A DNA stretch of 64,000 nt from Candidatus Omnitrophota bacterium (lineage in GTDB: Bacteria; Ratteibacteria; UBA8468; B48-G9; JAFGKM01), in assembly GCA_023819375.1 (NCBI GenBank), contig JAMWDI010000004.1, positions 1-64,000 on the forward strand, written 5' to 3'. Each line of letters opens with the position of its first letter. Within the stretch, counting starts at the first letter, position 1. The notes beneath the pieces are model-generated. The model worked only from the letters and a program-made list of their open reading frames with translations, was not told the origin of the DNA and did not search any database. Below are positions 5,719 to 60,155 of this stretch, in pieces. The translations under genes and the position numbers were made by a program.

Positions 5719-6654
5719 ATGAAAGAAAGAAAAGTTTATATAAATGGGAAACTTGTCCCTGAAAGTAAAGCCAGAATATCCATCTTTGATTTGGGATTTA
5801 AATACGGAGCAGTATTTTATGAATCTATGCGTACATTCAATCATAAAATTTTTAAACTTGAAGAAAGGTTAAAACGTTTGGAAAATTCTCTTAAATATGC
5901 CGGATTTGAAAATCTTCTAAATATGGAAGAGATAGAAAAAATAATAAATAAGGTGCTTGAAGTAAATCTTAAATTTGTAGAAAAAGAGGATGATTTATTT
6001 CTGGTTGTGGAAATAACTCCTGGAATTGGACCAACCCACCCTTTATCACCTCAAAAAGAGTTTTTGCCTACTGTTATAGTATATACTTCTCCAATCCCTT
6101 ATTCAGAATTTGCAAAATATTATTTAATTGGTAAACCAGCTTTTATTGTAAAAACCTGTAATATACCTCCTGAATGTTTTGACCCTCAAATAAAGTGTAG
6201 AAGCAGATTACATTTTTTCTTAGCAAAAAAAGAAGTGGAAAAATATAAAACTGATGCTTTCGCTCTTTTGCCTGACCTTAAAGGAAATATTACAGAAAGT
6301 ACAGGAGCAAATTTTTTTATTGTAAAAGATGGTATTTTATTTACACCAAGTTCAAAAAATATAGTTAAAGGAATAACAAGACAGACAATTATTGAAATTG
6401 CAGAAAAACTCGGGATTAATGTAATTGAAAAGGATATAAAAGAGGAAGAAGTTTTAAAAGCAGATGAAGCATTTTTTACAGCAACAACTTTTTGTATTTT
6501 ACCAATTTCAAGTATAAATAATGTTACAATTGGAAAAAAAATACCAGGCCCATATACAAAAAAACTTATTTCAGCATGGAGCGAGATGGTAGGTGTTGAT
6601 ATAGTTAAACAAGCAATTAAATTTGCAAAAATAAGCGCGCCTGGCCAGATTTGA
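5719..6654 (+). CDS. Class IV PLP aminotransferase (IlvE / D-amino-acid aminotransferase / ADC lyase group)
   Basis: 311 residues, a usual length for fold-type IV PLP enzymes. VYINGKLVPESKARISIFD and YGAVFYESMRTF match the family N-terminus. The PLP lysine lies in QIKCRSRLHFFLA (about residue 155), and GNITESTGANFFIV is the conserved Glu/Asn region. IVKGITRQTIIEIA and ADEAFFTATTFCILPI are the usual C-terminal motifs. It may be a branched-chain aminotransferase or 4-amino-4-deoxychorismate lyase; sequence alone does not decide. The last 19 bases of the gene, including its stop, overlap a tRNA-Arg gene encoded on the opposite strand, so the C-terminal SAPGQI residues are read from antisense tRNA sequence. 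Confidence 0.8.
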   Translation: MKERKVYINGKLVPESKARISIFDLGFKYGAVFYESMRTFNHKIFKLEERLKRLENSLKYAGFENLLNMEEIEKIINKVLEVNLKFVEKEDDLFLVVEITPGIGPTHPLSPQKEFLPTVIVYTSPIPYSEFAKYYLIGKPAFIVKTCNIPPECFDPQIKCRSRLHFFLAKKEVEKYKTDAFALLPDLKGNITESTGANFFIVKDGILFTPSSKNIVKGITRQTIIEIAEKLGINVIEKDIKEEEVLKADEAFFTATTFCILPISSINNVTIGKKIPGPYTKKLISAWSEMVGVDIVKQAIKFAKISAPGQI

Positions 6655-6710
6655 ACTGGCGACCCTTGGATTCGAAGTCCACCGCTCTATCCAGACTGAG
6701 CTACAGGCGC
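6636..6710 (-). tRNA. tRNA-Arg(TCG)
   Basis: The minus strand folds as a cloverleaf. Acceptor GCGCCTG pairs with CAGGCGC, the D-arm is GCTC/GAGC, and the anticodon loop CTTCGAA gives anticodon TCG. The T-arm contains TTCAAAT. The discriminator base is G and CCA is not encoded. The first pair of the anticodon stem is a G-A mismatch; the other four are canonical. The 3' end overlaps the end of the convergent aminotransferase gene. Confidence 0.93.
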
Positions 6711-8013: not shown

Positions 8014-9399
8014 TTGAAAATTAAATTCCTTGGAGCAACTAAAAATGTGACTGGTTCAAAGTTTTTACTTCAAATTGATGGTAAAAATTTACTTGTAGAT
8101 TGTGGTCTTTTTCAAGAGAGGGAATTAAAAAATAGAAATTGGGAAGAATTTCCAGTTGATATTGAGAAAATTGATTGTATTTTGTTATCACATGCCCATC
8201 TTGATCATTCAGGTTATATTCCAAAGATTGTAAAAGATGGATTTTCAGGAAAAATTTATTGCACATATCCAACAAGTGAAATAACAAAGATAGCACTTCT
8301 TGATTCTGCAAAATTACAGGTTGAAGATGCAGAAAAAAAGAGAAAAAGGCATCAAAAGGAAGGCAGAAAAGGGCCATATCCAGAAATACCTTTATATGAT
8401 GTTTCTGATGCTGAAAAATCATTTCATCTTTTTGAACCAATCAACTACAATGAAGTTGTAGAGATTTCAGATAAAATTAAAGTAGTTTTTTATAATTCAG
8501 GACATATTCTTGGTTCTTCATTAATAAAAATTTACGTAAATGGTAAAGAAATTGTTTTTTCAGGTGATCTGGGAAGGGAAGGAAGTCCTCTTCTTCATCC
8601 ACCAGAAATAATTGAGAGTGCAGATATATTGATACTTGAAAGTACCTATGGAGATAGAATTCATGAAGAAAGGGAAATTGCTATTGAAAAACTTGAAAAT
8701 ATTATAAATGAAACTGTTAAAAAGGGAGGAAATATTGTTATTCCAACTTTTGCAATAGAGAGGGCACAGGAGATTTTATATTATTTAAAAAAACTTTTAA
8801 TTGAAGATAGAATTCCTCATATATTAACCTTTCTTGATAGTCCAATGGCAATAGAAGTTACAGAGGTTTTTAAAAAGTATCTAAGTTATATAGATGGCGA
8901 AGCAGAAAAAATCATTGAAAAAAATATTTCTCCTTTTGATTTTCCTTTACTCCATTTTACAAAAACAGTTGAAGAGTCAAAAATGATAAATCATATAAAA
9001 GGTTCTACAATTATTATGGCAGGAAGTGGTATGTGTACAGGTGGAAGGATAAAACATCATCTTATTTCAAATATAGAAAGAGAAGAATCGTCAATTCTTT
9101 TTGTTGGTTATCAGGCCAAGGGAACACTTGGAAGAGAGATAATTGAAAAAGAAGAAGTAAGGATTCTTGGAAATTACTATAAAGTTAGAGCAAAAATTGA
9201 GAAAATAGATGGTTTTTCGGCTCATGCAGATAAGGGTGAATTACTGAAATGGCTTGACGGCTTTAAAAAATTTCCTGAAAAATTATTTTTAGTTCATGGA
9301 GAAGAAGAAACAATAGAAAATTTTGCTGAAACAATAAAAAAAGCACATACAGATTCAGAGATAATAATCCCATCCTATCTTGATGAATATGAAATTTAA
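8014..9399 (+). CDS. MBL-fold / beta-CASP RNA metallo-hydrolase
   Basis: 461 residues. Zinc ligands of the metallo-beta-lactamase fold are visible: HAHLDHSG (about residue 65), GHILGSS, SGDLGREGSP and ESTYGDR. The beta-CASP insertion follows (IVIPTFAIERAQEILY, DSPMAIEV, GSGMCTGGR). GFSAHADKGELLKWL and LFLVHGEEE close the fold. This set is characteristic of CPSF73-like bacterial RNA hydrolases; the KH domains of archaeal members are absent. The start is TTG at 8014, chosen because AAGGAGG (8001-8007) lies 6 bases upstream. It overlaps the convergent OPT gene by 4 bases at the stop codons. Confidence 0.88.
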   Translation: MKIKFLGATKNVTGSKFLLQIDGKNLLVDCGLFQERELKNRNWEEFPVDIEKIDCILLSHAHLDHSGYIPKIVKDGFSGKIYCTYPTSEITKIALLDSAKLQVEDAEKKRKRHQKEGRKGPYPEIPLYDVSDAEKSFHLFEPINYNEVVEISDKIKVVFYNSGHILGSSLIKIYVNGKEIVFSGDLGREGSPLLHPPEIIESADILILESTYGDRIHEEREIAIEKLENIINETVKKGGNIVIPTFAIERAQEILYYLKKLLIEDRIPHILTFLDSPMAIEVTEVFKKYLSYIDGEAEKIIEKNISPFDFPLLHFTKTVEESKMINHIKGSTIIMAGSGMCTGGRIKHHLISNIEREESSILFVGYQAKGTLGREIIEKEEVRILGNYYKVRAKIEKIDGFSAHADKGELLKWLDGFKKFPEKLFLVHGEEETIENFAETIKKAHTDSEIIIPSYLDEYEI

Positions 9400-16289: not shown

Positions 16290-16465
16290 AAATTTCTCAA
16301 TCTGTTAATCCTTTTTATGAGTATAAAGATAAGAAAGAAAAAGCAAAAATACATAAAAAGTTTGCTCAAAAAGGTTTCTTTTCTTAGAATAAGAGGCCAC
16401 AGAGAAAAAATAGAAATTATAATGAAAACATCTTCCCACAAAGGTGTTTTTTCCCTATTTTTCAC
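16286..16465 (-). CDS. Small two-helix membrane protein, 59 residues
   Basis: A GTG-initiated frame runs from 16465 to a TGA at 16288-16286. The GTG lies within the last codons of the GH130 gene (overlap of 11 bases), and the TGA overlaps the ATG of the TPR lipoprotein gene (ATGA). This nested spacing fits a real, translationally coupled gene. The protein starts [13 protein letters not shown] and has two hydrophobic stretches (VFIIISIFSLWPLIL and LFMYFCFFFLIFILI) separated by RKETFLSK, with a basic tail (KRINRLRNL). It may be a partner of the large permease fusion downstream. No homology is recognised. Confidence 0.6.
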   Translation of the reverse strand: MKNREKTPLWEDVFIIISIFSLWPLILRKETFLSKLFMYFCFFFLIFILIKRINRLRNL

Positions 16466-17444
16466 TCTTTTCTAAAAGTTTTTTTACTTCTTTTAATTCA
16501 ATTTCTGCACATCCAATTCTTTTATCAGCACAGCCATAAAAAATGTAAAAAATATCTTCCTTTATAAATGCACCAGTAGGAAAAACAACATTTGGGATAT
16601 TACCATTTTTCTCCCATTCATAATCAGGTTCAAATAAAGGGAAAGGTAATCTTGATATTTCTTTTTTTGGATTTTCAAGATCAAGAAGAGCAAGTCCTGC
16701 TCTATAAACCCTATTTTCATCAACACCATGATATAACAAAAGATATCCAAATTCAGTTTTAATAGGAGGAGCACCTGCACCAATTTTCATTTTTTCCCAC
16801 TTATATTTAGGTTTCATTACTATGTTTTCTTCAATATTCTTGAAATATTCTTCCCAGAATTCTTTATCTTTAAGTTCAAAAAAATCATTAAAAAAGACAA
16901 TCTGGATGTCAGGTTCAATTCTATGAAGTAAAACATATTTTCCATCTATTTTTTCAGGAAATAGACAACCATCTTTATCCCAGATAATGATATTTTCTCC
17001 TTTTTCTTTTATTTGATTAAGCCAGAAATCCCTGTATCTTTCACTCTTTGAGATATTAAGGGCCTCAAGAAAAGTGATGTTAGGACTTATAATTCCAAGT
17101 TTTTTAAAATCTAAAAGATTTTTTGATTTTGCAACTCCAATCCTTGCATTTTTTCCATCATAAGCAGTATAGGTTAAAAAGTATGTTCCTTCTATTTTTG
17201 TAATTCTTGGATCTTCAATACCTTGTTTTTCGTATTCTTCTGTAGGACACATTATAGGATATTCATATGTTTCAATTGAATTTTCTGGAATAAGTTTTAA
17301 ATATCCCAATCGGGAGTAATTATCACATCTTATTGCTCTATAAATAATATGGACTTGCTCATTTTCAACAATAACTCCTGGATTAAAAACTCCATCCTTT
17401 TCCCAATCAAAACAACCTTCATAAATAAGTTTTTTCCTAACCAT
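16455..17444 (-). CDS. GH130 family beta-mannoside phosphorylase-like protein
   Basis: 329 residues of the five-bladed propeller GH130 type. Visible motifs are [31 protein letters not shown] (the Asp proposed as proton donor in the family), GAGAPPI, LLLYHGV and [22 protein letters not shown]. These enzymes phosphorolyse beta-mannosides in the cytoplasm, and no signal peptide is seen. The start is the ATG at 17444 because the frame upstream runs into the tRNA-Leu gene. The ATG lies only 9 bases after the mature tRNA 3' end, without a Shine-Dalgarno sequence. It overlaps the small membrane-protein gene downstream. Confidence 0.85.
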
Positions 17445-17453
17445 AAAAAAATG

Positions 17454-17535
17454 TGCCGGGAGGGGGACTCGAACCCCCACGGCTTACGCCATACGCCCCT
17501 CAAACGTACGTGTCTGCCAATTCCACCATCCCGGC
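17454..17535 (-). tRNA. tRNA-Leu(GAG)
   Basis: Minus-strand class II tRNA of 82 bases. Acceptor GCCGGGA pairs with TCCCGGC, anticodon stem TACGT/GCGTA closes loop TTGAGGG giving anticodon GAG, and a long variable arm (TGGCGTAAGCCGT) is present. The T-arm has TTCGAGT. The discriminator is A and CCA is not encoded. It lies between glyQ and the GH130 gene in the same orientation. Confidence 0.95.
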
Positions 17536-17545
17536 CTATCAAAAT

Positions 17546-18403
17546 TTATATTATACCTTTTCCTTTTTCTATGTAAAGTAAAGCACATTTATTTGCAAGT
17601 TTTCTTACTCTTTGAATATATCTTACTCTTTCACTTACACTTATTGCCTTCCTTGAATCAAGCAAATTAAAAATATGAGAAAGTTTCAAAATATAGTCAT
17701 ATGCAGGATAAATAAGTTCAATTTCAAGAAGTCTTTCTGCTTCTTTTTCAAATTTATCAAAAATTTCAAATAAAAGATTTATGTCAGCAACCTCAAAAGA
17801 ATAAATTGAATATTCCCTTTCTCTTTCTTTATAAATATCTCCATATTTCACTGTTTTATTCCATTTAAGATTAAAAACATTCTTTTCATTTTGAAGAAAA
17901 TTAACAATTCTATCAAGTCCATAAGTAATTTCAACAGCAGGAGGTAAAAGATCAATTCCACCAGCCTGTTGCATATATGTAAATTGAGTTATTTCAAGAC
18001 CATCAATCCAGACCTCCCAGCCAACACCCCATGCCCCAAGAGTTGGTGCTTCCCAGTTGTCCTCAATAAATCTTATATCGTGTTCTTTTATTGGGATGCC
18101 TATATATTCTAAACTTTTTAAATAAATTTTCTGAATATCATCTGGTGGGGGTTTCATTATAACCTGTATTTGATGATGAAGGTATAATCTAACAGGGTTA
18201 TCTCCATATCTGCCATCTGCTGGTCTTACAGATGGTTCAATATAAACAACATTCCATTTTTTATTTCCTAAAATTCCAAAAAATGTAGCGGGGTTTAAGG
18301 TTCCGGCCCCTACTTCAACATTATAAGGGCGCCAGAGTAAACATCCTTTTTTTACCCAAAAATTTTCTATCTTCCTCCAAACATCTTGAAATAAATTTTC
18401 CAT
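17546..18403 (-). CDS. glyQ: Glycine--tRNA ligase alpha subunit
   Basis: 285 residues, the normal GlyQ length. Strongly conserved segments are visible: WRPYNVEVGAGTLNPATFFG, YIEPSVRPADGRYGDNPVRL, HHQIQVIMKPPP, FIEDNWEAPTLGAWGVGWEV and GIDLLPPAVEITYGLDRI. It is the catalytic subunit of the heterotetrameric glycyl-tRNA synthetase. The partner glyS is not next to it; the downstream neighbour is tRNA-Leu, so the beta subunit must be encoded elsewhere. It follows the YchF-like gene by 11 bases. Confidence 0.95.
   Translation of the reverse strand: MENLFQDVWRKIENFWVKKGCLLWRPYNVEVGAGTLNPATFFGILGNKKWNVVYIEPSVRPADGRYGDNPVRLYLHHQIQVIMKPPPDDIQKIYLKSLEYIGIPIKEHDIRFIEDNWEAPTLGAWGVGWEVWIDGLEITQFTYMQQAGGIDLLPPAVEITYGLDRIVNFLQNEKNVFNLKWNKTVKYGDIYKEREREYSIYSFEVADINLLFEIFDKFEKEAERLLEIELIYPAYDYILKLSHIFNLLDSRKAISVSERVRYIQRVRKLANKCALLYIEKGKGII
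17550..17577 (-). promoter_or_regulatory. Promoter for tRNA-Leu, within the end of glyQ
   Basis: On the minus strand TTTACA (17577-17572), a 16-base spacer and TATAAT (17555-17550) lie in the last codons of glyQ. Transcription would start a few bases before the tRNA at 17535 and could continue into the GH130 gene. Confidence 0.5.
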
Positions 18404-18414
18404 AATAAGTAATT

Positions 18415-19293
18415 TTATCTTGTAAAATAAAACTCTACAACATCTCCATCTGAAATTTCAGAATTGGGACCAAGAAATTTTAAAATTCCCATATTTTTTG
18501 CTTTGTGCCAATCACCAATTTCAATAAATTCCTCAAAACTTAAAGTTCCTGCTTTTATAAAACCTTTTTCAATATCTTTATGAATTTTCCCACCTGCTTT
18601 TTTAGCAATTGTGCCCTTTGGAATTATCCAGGCAGAGGCAATATTTCCTTTAACTGTATAAAAGGTTATCATCCTTAGTATTTCAATGATTTTCTTATAA
18701 ATTTCGTTCAAATCCCTTATAACTGGTAAATCTGTTTTTACTTCCTTTTCATTTCCATTTAAAAAAACTGCTATTTCTTTGATTGTTAAAAGTTCTGTCC
18801 CTGAAAAATATTCTTTATTAATATCTGTATCTTTTAAAAATTTCTCTTTTTTCAAAAACTCAAGACATTTTTCCCAGAAATCAATCTCTCCACTTGTTTT
18901 TTTTCTATTTTCTATAATTCTTTCAATCTTTTCTATATCGTGATAAATTAATTCCATACACAATGAATAAAGCTCTTCTTCTGGATTTGAATTATTTGTA
19001 AAATTTTTCACAATCATTAAAATTACATCTTTATCAATAAAGTTTTTGAAATATTTTTCAGGGAAACCTTCATTTTCAGGAAAACCTTTAAAGTCATATA
19101 TTTCAAATTCAGGATATACAACCTTTTCAGGATTTATTATTTTTTTCAATTTTTCAAGCCTTTCATCTTTATATATTCCAATTCCTACATTTGGTTTAAA
19201 TGGATCAAAAATTTCCCCTTCTTTTCCTGTTAGTTTTTTGAAAATATATGTTTTTCCACTCCCTGAATAACCAAAAAGAGCGATTTTTATCAT
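18415..19293 (-). CDS. Divergent YchF/Obg-like P-loop NTPase with TGS-like C-terminus
   Basis: 292 residues. The P-loop GYSGSGKT is at residues 8-15, and a DFKG at about residue 68 stands where DxxG is expected. A clear NKxD/NxxE base-specificity motif is not seen (the corresponding strand reads LMIVKNF). Residues about 220-292 match the YchF C-terminal TGS domain (AWIIPKGTIAKKAGGKIHKD, EKGFIKAGTLSFEEFIEIG, SDGDVVEFYFT). It is shorter than canonical YchF (about 360). It could be a ribosome-associated regulator, consistent with adjacency to glyQ. A TAAAAT lies 7 bases before the ATG with no Shine-Dalgarno, suggesting a leaderless start. Confidence 0.75.
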   Translation of the reverse strand: MIKIALFGYSGSGKTYIFKKLTGKEGEIFDPFKPNVGIGIYKDERLEKLKKIINPEKVVYPEFEIYDFKGFPENEGFPEKYFKNFIDKDVILMIVKNFTNNSNPEEELYSLCMELIYHDIEKIERIIENRKKTSGEIDFWEKCLEFLKKEKFLKDTDINKEYFSGTELLTIKEIAVFLNGNEKEVKTDLPVIRDLNEIYKKIIEILRMITFYTVKGNIASAWIIPKGTIAKKAGGKIHKDIEKGFIKAGTLSFEEFIEIGDWHKAKNMGILKFLGPNSEISDGDVVEFYFTR

Positions 19294-59250: not shown

Positions 59251-60012
59251 TTATTTGAAATTTTCAAATTTAATTGACTTTAAATTTTCTAAAAATTTGT
59301 AATCTGTTAAGTTTAAATGTAAAGGAGTTATAGATACATAATCATTTTTAATAGCAGAGACATCACTTTCCATTTCATCTATCTTTTCTTCAAAAAATCC
59401 TTTGAGCCAGAAATAAATATTACCTCTTGGGTCAACCCTTTTTTCATATTCTTCATTAAATCTGCTTTCACTTTGATATGTAATTTTTATTCCTTTTATT
59501 TCATCTATTTCTTTATTTGGGATATTTACGTTTAAGATTGTATCCTTGGGAAATTTGATTGATTTTATTTTCTTAATAATTCTTAAAGATATTTCTGCTG
59601 CTGTTTTAAAATTGAAATTTTTGTAATCTGCAATTGAAATAGAAATTGAAGGAATACCTAAAATTGCACCTTCACTTGCAGCGGAGACAGTTCCTGAATA
59701 AAGAATATCCATTCCAAGGTTTGGCCCTGGATTTATACCTGAAACAACCATATCTATTTTTTCTTTTATGAGTTCTTTAATTCCTATCTTAACACAATCT
59801 ACAGGGGTTCCGCTTACAATATAACATGTAATCCCATTAACTTTTACTTTTTTAACTCTTAGAGGACTTAATAGATTTATTGAATGGCTTGTAGCACTTT
59901 TTTCTGTCTCAGGAACAACAACAAAAACATCTGCAATTTCTTTAAGTTTTTTGTATATGGCCCTTAATCCTTCAGAGAAAATTCCATCATCATTTGTGAG
60001 CAGTATTTTCAT
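59251..60012 (-). CDS. surE: 5'-nucleotidase SurE
   Basis: 253 residues from the ATG at 60012 (MKILLTNDDGIFSEGLRAIY). The metal site is LTNDDG, with SATSHSINL, GTPVDCVKIGI and VSGINPGPNLGMDILYSGTV following. It removes phosphate from nucleoside monophosphates under stress. The start codon is 7 bases after the 3' end of tRNA-Ala; no ribosome-binding site fits between them. A TTG at 60018 is in frame but overlaps the tRNA edge. Confidence 0.95.
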   Translation of the reverse strand: MKILLTNDDGIFSEGLRAIYKKLKEIADVFVVVPETEKSATSHSINLLSPLRVKKVKVNGITCYIVSGTPVDCVKIGIKELIKEKIDMVVSGINPGPNLGMDILYSGTVSAASEGAILGIPSISISIADYKNFNFKTAAEISLRIIKKIKSIKFPKDTILNVNIPNKEIDEIKGIKITYQSESRFNEEYEKRVDPRGNIYFWLKGFFEEKIDEMESDVSAIKNDYVSITPLHLNLTDYKFLENLKSIKFENFK

Positions 60013-60019
60013 TTTCAAC

Positions 60020-60091
60020 TGGAGCAGACCGGATTTGAACCGGCAACCTTCCGCATGCGAAGCGGATGCTCTCCCGTTGAGCTACTGCCCC
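60020..60091 (-). tRNA. tRNA-Ala(CGC)
   Basis: Minus-strand cloverleaf of 72 bases. Acceptor GGGGCAG pairs with CTGCTCC, including the G3-U70 wobble that marks tRNA-Ala. D-arm is GCTC/GAGC, anticodon stem TCCGC/GCGGA closes loop TTCGCAT with anticodon CGC, and the T-arm is GCCGG/CCGGT with TTCAAAT. The discriminator is A and CCA is not encoded. A TAAAAT lies 10 bases upstream as a possible -10 box. Confidence 0.95.
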
Positions 60092-60155
60092 TTTAATTTT
60101 ATTTTACCATAATTTGGTTTTTTTATTTATTAGAAAGTTGGGATAAAATTAAAAT

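Follow-up and report, generated by a model that had tools for sequence, protein, structure and literature searches.

A GH130 gene nine bases behind a tRNA-Leu gene, and the possible use of tRNA 3' cleavage to set mRNA 5' ends in an Omnitrophota bacterium

How can a gene be expressed when its start codon lies nine bases behind a tRNA and no Shine-Dalgarno (SD) sequence precedes it? The question is raised by a locus in the genome of a hot-spring Omnitrophota bacterium (G000; 1.73 Mb, 94% complete, 46 tRNAs), a close relative of named Candidatus Omnitrophota MAGs that bear the label Tibet. The stretch analysed, hereafter the window, comprises 64,000 nucleotides (bases 1-64000 of contig 9). In it, tRNA-Leu(GAG) was called by ARAGORN, with agreement from Rfam, on the minus strand at 17454..17535; its acceptor stem closes at 17455, the discriminator is an A at 17454 and CCA is not encoded. 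A 9-nt spacer, CATTTTTTT (17445..17453), leads on the same strand to the ATG (17444-17442) of a 329-aa CDS (16455..17444), which belongs to the GH130 glycoside phosphorylase family according to a match above cut-off to PF04041 (Glyco_hydro_130, E=1.7e-61). The order along the minus strand is therefore ...TATAATATAAATTTTGATAG, tRNA-Leu(GAG) 17535-17454, CATTTTTTT, ATGGTTAGG... The sequence bears out this geometry and the lack of an SD in the spacer, both as described in the earlier note.

That note also placed a promoter just upstream of the tRNA and none after it, and our scan agrees: a promoter-like TTTACA-16-TATAAT (17550..17577, minus strand), 14 nt upstream of the tRNA, matches at 11 of 12 positions, while the best -10-like hexamer upstream of the GH130 ATG matches at just three of six. 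The site falls within the 3' end of glyQ (glycyl-tRNA synthetase alpha subunit; 17546..18403, minus strand), and its TATAAT is kept in relatives, where the glyQ coding sequence partly constrains it. No terminator-like site or stem-loop was detected at the end of the tRNA, and a T7 tract begins two bases past it. By sequence criteria this is the arrangement of a tRNA-mRNA dicistronic unit, with both genes on one strand, a promoter-like site 5' of the tRNA and neither promoter nor terminator between them. The run of glyQ, tRNA-Leu and GH130 is headed by a gene for a YchF-like protein (DUF933; 18415..19293, minus strand) that itself looks leaderless, with TAAAAT 13 nt 5' of its ATG and no SD; its product is short (292 aa, with a partial TIGR00092 match). 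E. coli YchF holds back leaderless translation (PMC8138138), and we regard its position here as a coincidence worth noting, not as evidence.

The account that we favour, with somewhat better than even confidence, is that tRNA-Leu and GH130 are co-transcribed, that the transcript is cut at or just after the discriminator and that GH130 is translated from the resulting short leader. Transcription would begin at the promoter inside the end of glyQ or reach the locus by read-through from the start of the operon. The 3' end of the tRNA would then be matured, either at the discriminator by an RNase Z-like enzyme or within the U-tract by RNase E/G, and the GH130 mRNA so freed would carry at most 9 nt of 5' leader and no SD; ribosomes would start on it by the leaderless or short-leader route that many genes of this organism apparently use. 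None of the 46 tRNAs has an encoded CCA, and genes for a CCA-adding enzyme and for RNase E/G are present in the genome. Against the account, the candidate for RNase Z (C12:111463-112206) is a short homologue with an intact HRHIDH (HxHxDH) motif that scores 75 bits against a curated cut-off of 293, a fold prediction for 37 C pairs most of the GH130 AUG in a weak A/U-rich hairpin, and the T7 tract could terminate part of the transcription.

The strongest support for a general role of tRNA cleavage comes from a second junction in the window, which the earlier note had cited as a parallel and which proved real. There, tRNA-Ala(CGC) (60020..60091, minus strand) is separated by the 7-nt spacer GTTGAAA (60019-60013) from the ATG of surE, a 5'/3'-nucleotidase gene (59251..60012, minus strand) whose start is fixed by its N-terminal MKILLTNDDG motif. 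If cleavage behind the tRNA defines the mRNA 5' end, the leader would be 7 nt at surE and 9 nt at GH130, and at both genes the start lacks a preceding SD, as expected of short-leader mRNAs. A -10 box, TAAAAT (60101..60106, minus strand), lies 15 nt before the tRNA and is a candidate promoter of the tRNA-surE unit; TATAAT or TAAAAT was found 14-17 nt 5' of tRNA-Ala in all eight genomes checked. This -10 box sits in a divergent gap of 64 nt. Since the upstream gene is divergent and about 65 nt off, it is hard to see how surE could be expressed without carrying the tRNA in the 5' part of its transcript. Comparison of the six sampled genomes of the genus revealed that the junction is conserved at 7-10 nt and that its sequence has diverged: GTTGAAA in G000 (7 nt), GTTTTGGGAA in G001 (10 nt), ATAAAAA in G002 (7 nt), ATAGAAA in G003 (7 nt), CAAAAAT in G004 (7 nt) and CCATAAAA in G005 (8 nt). 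In other genera the gap is at least 18 nt, with an SD in some. The surE junction is the older, conserved example.

Whether so short a leader could be used depends on how translation starts elsewhere in this genome. SD and promoter counts were made on about 0.54 Mb of genome stretches, with gene starts set by simple ORF rules and no gene caller. An SD of at least 4 nt precedes 45-49% of ATG starts, against 17% in an upstream control, and genes without one make up about half of all, so genes next to tRNAs are not peculiar in lacking it. Among 46 divergently led genes, 16 have 10-17 nt between a -10 box and the ATG, which places the transcription start at the AUG or a few nucleotides upstream, and 14 of these 16 have no SD; in the other main class the -10 box lies further out, at 24-36 nt from the ATG, and an SD is frequent. 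The promoter positions indicate that leaderless starts are probably routine in this organism, and for that reason a leader of 7-9 nt should be acceptable to its ribosomes.

A list of 26 tRNAs with a same-strand CDS close behind, hand-picked from a wider comparison of junctions, shows that gaps of 7, 7, 9, 10, 13 nt and so on recur in this genome, and that the first 8 nt after the tRNAs are T-rich (50% T). An SD is present in 2 of the 11 junctions shorter than 24 nt versus 12 of the 15 longer ones (Fisher p=0.004), a scarcity that is partly geometric because an SD does not fit into the first 10 nt behind a tRNA. As a control, an unrelated compact genome of 1.5 Mb from another phylum (36 tRNAs examined) had a shortest tRNA-CDS gap of 15 nt. 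Several junctions keep a similar length across two or three genomes, namely Asp-ThrRS-like (23/21/25 nt), Trp-secE-like (15/14/16 nt), Glu(TTC)-follower (10/16/16 nt) and Thr-dcd-like (18/22 nt), and all of these lack a clear SD with one exception; the gene names at these junctions were assigned by eye. SD-like motifs occur in some genomes at the Leu(CAA)-HU-like, Gln(TTG) and Arg(CCG) junctions, and the tRNA-Thr(GGT)-tuf-like junction of G000 keeps an SD (AAAGGAGGT, 24 nt). We also observed TTGACA directly after tRNA-Trp, followed 17 nt on by TAAAAT inside the start of the secE-like gene, in G000 (L028), G001 (L185) and G003 (L201), a possible promoter inside that gene. Taken over the genus, the sequence evidence favours tRNA 3' ends as 5' boundaries of the mRNA for some genes.

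The GH130 junction itself has a different history. Among six relatives (five of the genus and one of a sister genus), tRNA-Leu(GAG) adjoins GH130 in all, visibly after the end of glyQ in five or more, and the spacing ranges from 16 nt to about 500 nt; conservation of the 9-nt junction was not found in these orthologous loci, and it is private to G000. An SD-like motif precedes the orthologous start in five of the six (GGAGG in G001, AAGGG in G002, AGAGGAAG/AAGGG in G003, AGGA in G004 and GGGGTGA in G006), and none was seen in G005. All six orthologues start at least five codons further upstream, and the N-terminus encoded in the window is correspondingly shorter. The junction is probably a recent local change, a deletion derivative, and the simplest reading is that this lineage lost the old spacer with its SD and the first codons, an internal codon becoming the start. 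Since it would have arisen by loss of an SD-bearing spacer, we consider that it exploits a tolerance of short leaders and is not an evolved regulatory device. The gene is intact and its pN/pS of 0.16-0.27 indicates that it is under purifying selection and still used.

With these data, the broader claim that tRNA cleavage generates translatable 5' ends stands in part: the anatomy, the conservation of the surE junction and the leaderless-type promoters speak for it, and the private nature of the GH130 junction and the abundance of SD-less genes speak against it. A bolder version holds that selection maintains tRNA 3' processing in the genus as a standing source of short-leader mRNAs, a bacterial tRNA punctuation that serves surE and other SD-less junctions and of which GH130 would be a new recruit; this we put forward tentatively, with more doubt than belief.

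The alternative that survives best, although we judge it rather unlikely, is an ordinary operon of a compact genome, in which GH130 lies near the tRNA by chance and any transcripts that cover it are translated at low level, the cut of the tRNA having no role in producing the start. Its case rests on base rates: 34% of non-overlapping same-strand CDS pairs are separated by 10 nt or less, versus 4 of the 26 tRNA-CDS junctions, so that in this genome tight spacing proved no more frequent after tRNAs than between genes; the frequency of SD-less genes and the restriction of the GH130 junction to G000 point the same way. Such a reading must nevertheless accommodate a surE gap held at 7-10 nt in six genomes, and an uncut precursor would place a stable acceptor stem within 10 nt of the AUG, where it should hinder 30S binding. 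A further alternative is that GH130 has its own transcription start inside the tRNA gene or the spacer and is leaderless by transcription and not by processing. Leaderless-type promoters are common enough in the genome to suggest it, yet the three-of-six hexamer led us to reject an internal GH130 promoter, and the best -10-like hexamer for an internal surE promoter reaches four of six at an unsuitable distance; we hold this route improbable. A start or ribosome-binding site within the tRNA, or 20-40 bases into the coding sequence, which the earlier note had named as the feature that would tell against its idea, was looked for and not found. A GTG at 17480, considered as an upstream in-frame start for GH130, was rejected since it lies inside the T-arm of the tRNA and has no sensible SD. 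Least probable of all is that the U-tract ends most tRNA-Leu transcripts and leaves GH130 almost silent and decaying, for although the T7 tract is close and the original SD and start region seem to be gone, the gene is intact with the low pN/pS given above and no terminator-like stem-loop was found there.

The favoured account, co-transcription followed by a cut at the tRNA 3' end, resembles several known systems in part. In the punctuation of mitochondrial transcripts, excision of tRNAs likewise sets the mRNA 5' end at or within a few nucleotides of an AUG that lacks an SD; here, in contrast, only some genes follow tRNAs, most have promoters of their own, the distance from tRNA to gene is 7-25 nt and cleavage is a proposal. 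In E. coli tRNA-tufB, as proposed here, a tRNA and a protein gene are co-transcribed as one unit from which the tRNA is released by processing, but the tufB leader is long and carries an SD, whereas the genes described here start 7-9 nt after the tRNA without one. Leaders shorter than 10 nt were reported for 264 mRNAs in Streptomyces (PMC4681348), and leaderless mRNAs are known in mycobacteria (PMC4633059). These share with our genes, as interpreted here, a leader of under 10 nt, and also the lack of an SD and the high frequency in the genome; they become leaderless because transcription starts at the AUG, whereas GH130 and surE would do so through tRNA processing. A bacterial precedent for tRNA punctuation was not found in the open-access literature searched, which does not prove its absence. 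If the account is true, the idea of mitochondrial tRNA punctuation would extend to a bacterium and the expression of some housekeeping genes would be tied to tRNA maturation. The approximately ten short junctions of this genome, several of them conserved in the genus, would then form a natural test set for initiation on 5'-monophosphate, SD-less leaders of 7-25 nt, and GH130 would illustrate a possible route by which a gene loses its ribosome-binding site and yet survives.

In the relatives, the gap between tRNA-Leu and GH130 often holds an element of about 100 nt with two hairpins and the core GGGGGGAGGACTATATCAGGAAGGGGGAAGCACCCCCTCCTGA, sometimes in tandem as units of about 180 bp; the tandem form recalls the E. 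coli tyrT repeats. The element also occurs downstream of many different tRNAs and tmRNA in the relatives (loci L073, L074, L075, L205, L207, L227-L241 and others). Its first part is antisense to the variable/T-arm region of the preceding tRNA, matching its own host in the tRNAs examined by eye, and beyond its far end comes a copy of the 3' end of that tRNA, a duplication present in 27 of 30 distinct copies. Most copies (25/30) lie 67-286 nt downstream of a same-strand tRNA, from several isoacceptor families; three follow a tmRNA-like 3' end, one a tRNA-Leu-like fragment, and for one the upstream sequence is too short to tell. An automatically built covariance model, R1, captured hairpin 1 poorly and served as a search tool only; with it the element was found in most of the family, with weaker matches in other families of the class, and was absent from the window's genome. 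An Rfam scan of the tRNA-Leu loci of the relatives returned tRNAs and sub-threshold chance matches only. Additionally, L072 and L076 have insertions upstream of tRNA-Leu that are bordered by a repeat of the tRNA's 5' end, either as GCCGGGATGGTGGAA or in degenerate form, which suggests that the tRNA-Leu locus collects insertions on both sides.

Three minor observations concern other loci. In the relatives, L231 and L234 carry a second type of repeated element after tRNAs, GGGAGCGAAGTAAGAAATTGCGACGGGTAGGAGTAATTTCAGCGGGTGGCCGACCCGAG. At 8014-9399 the window encodes a beta-CASP metallo-beta-lactamase ribonuclease-like protein that resembles the type VII Cas14 and aCPSF1 models with scores below their cut-offs. 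Finally, a 311-aa ORF on the plus strand (5719-6654), aminotransferase-like by eye, shares 20 nt with the 3' end of the minus-strand tRNA-Arg(TCG) (6635-6710).
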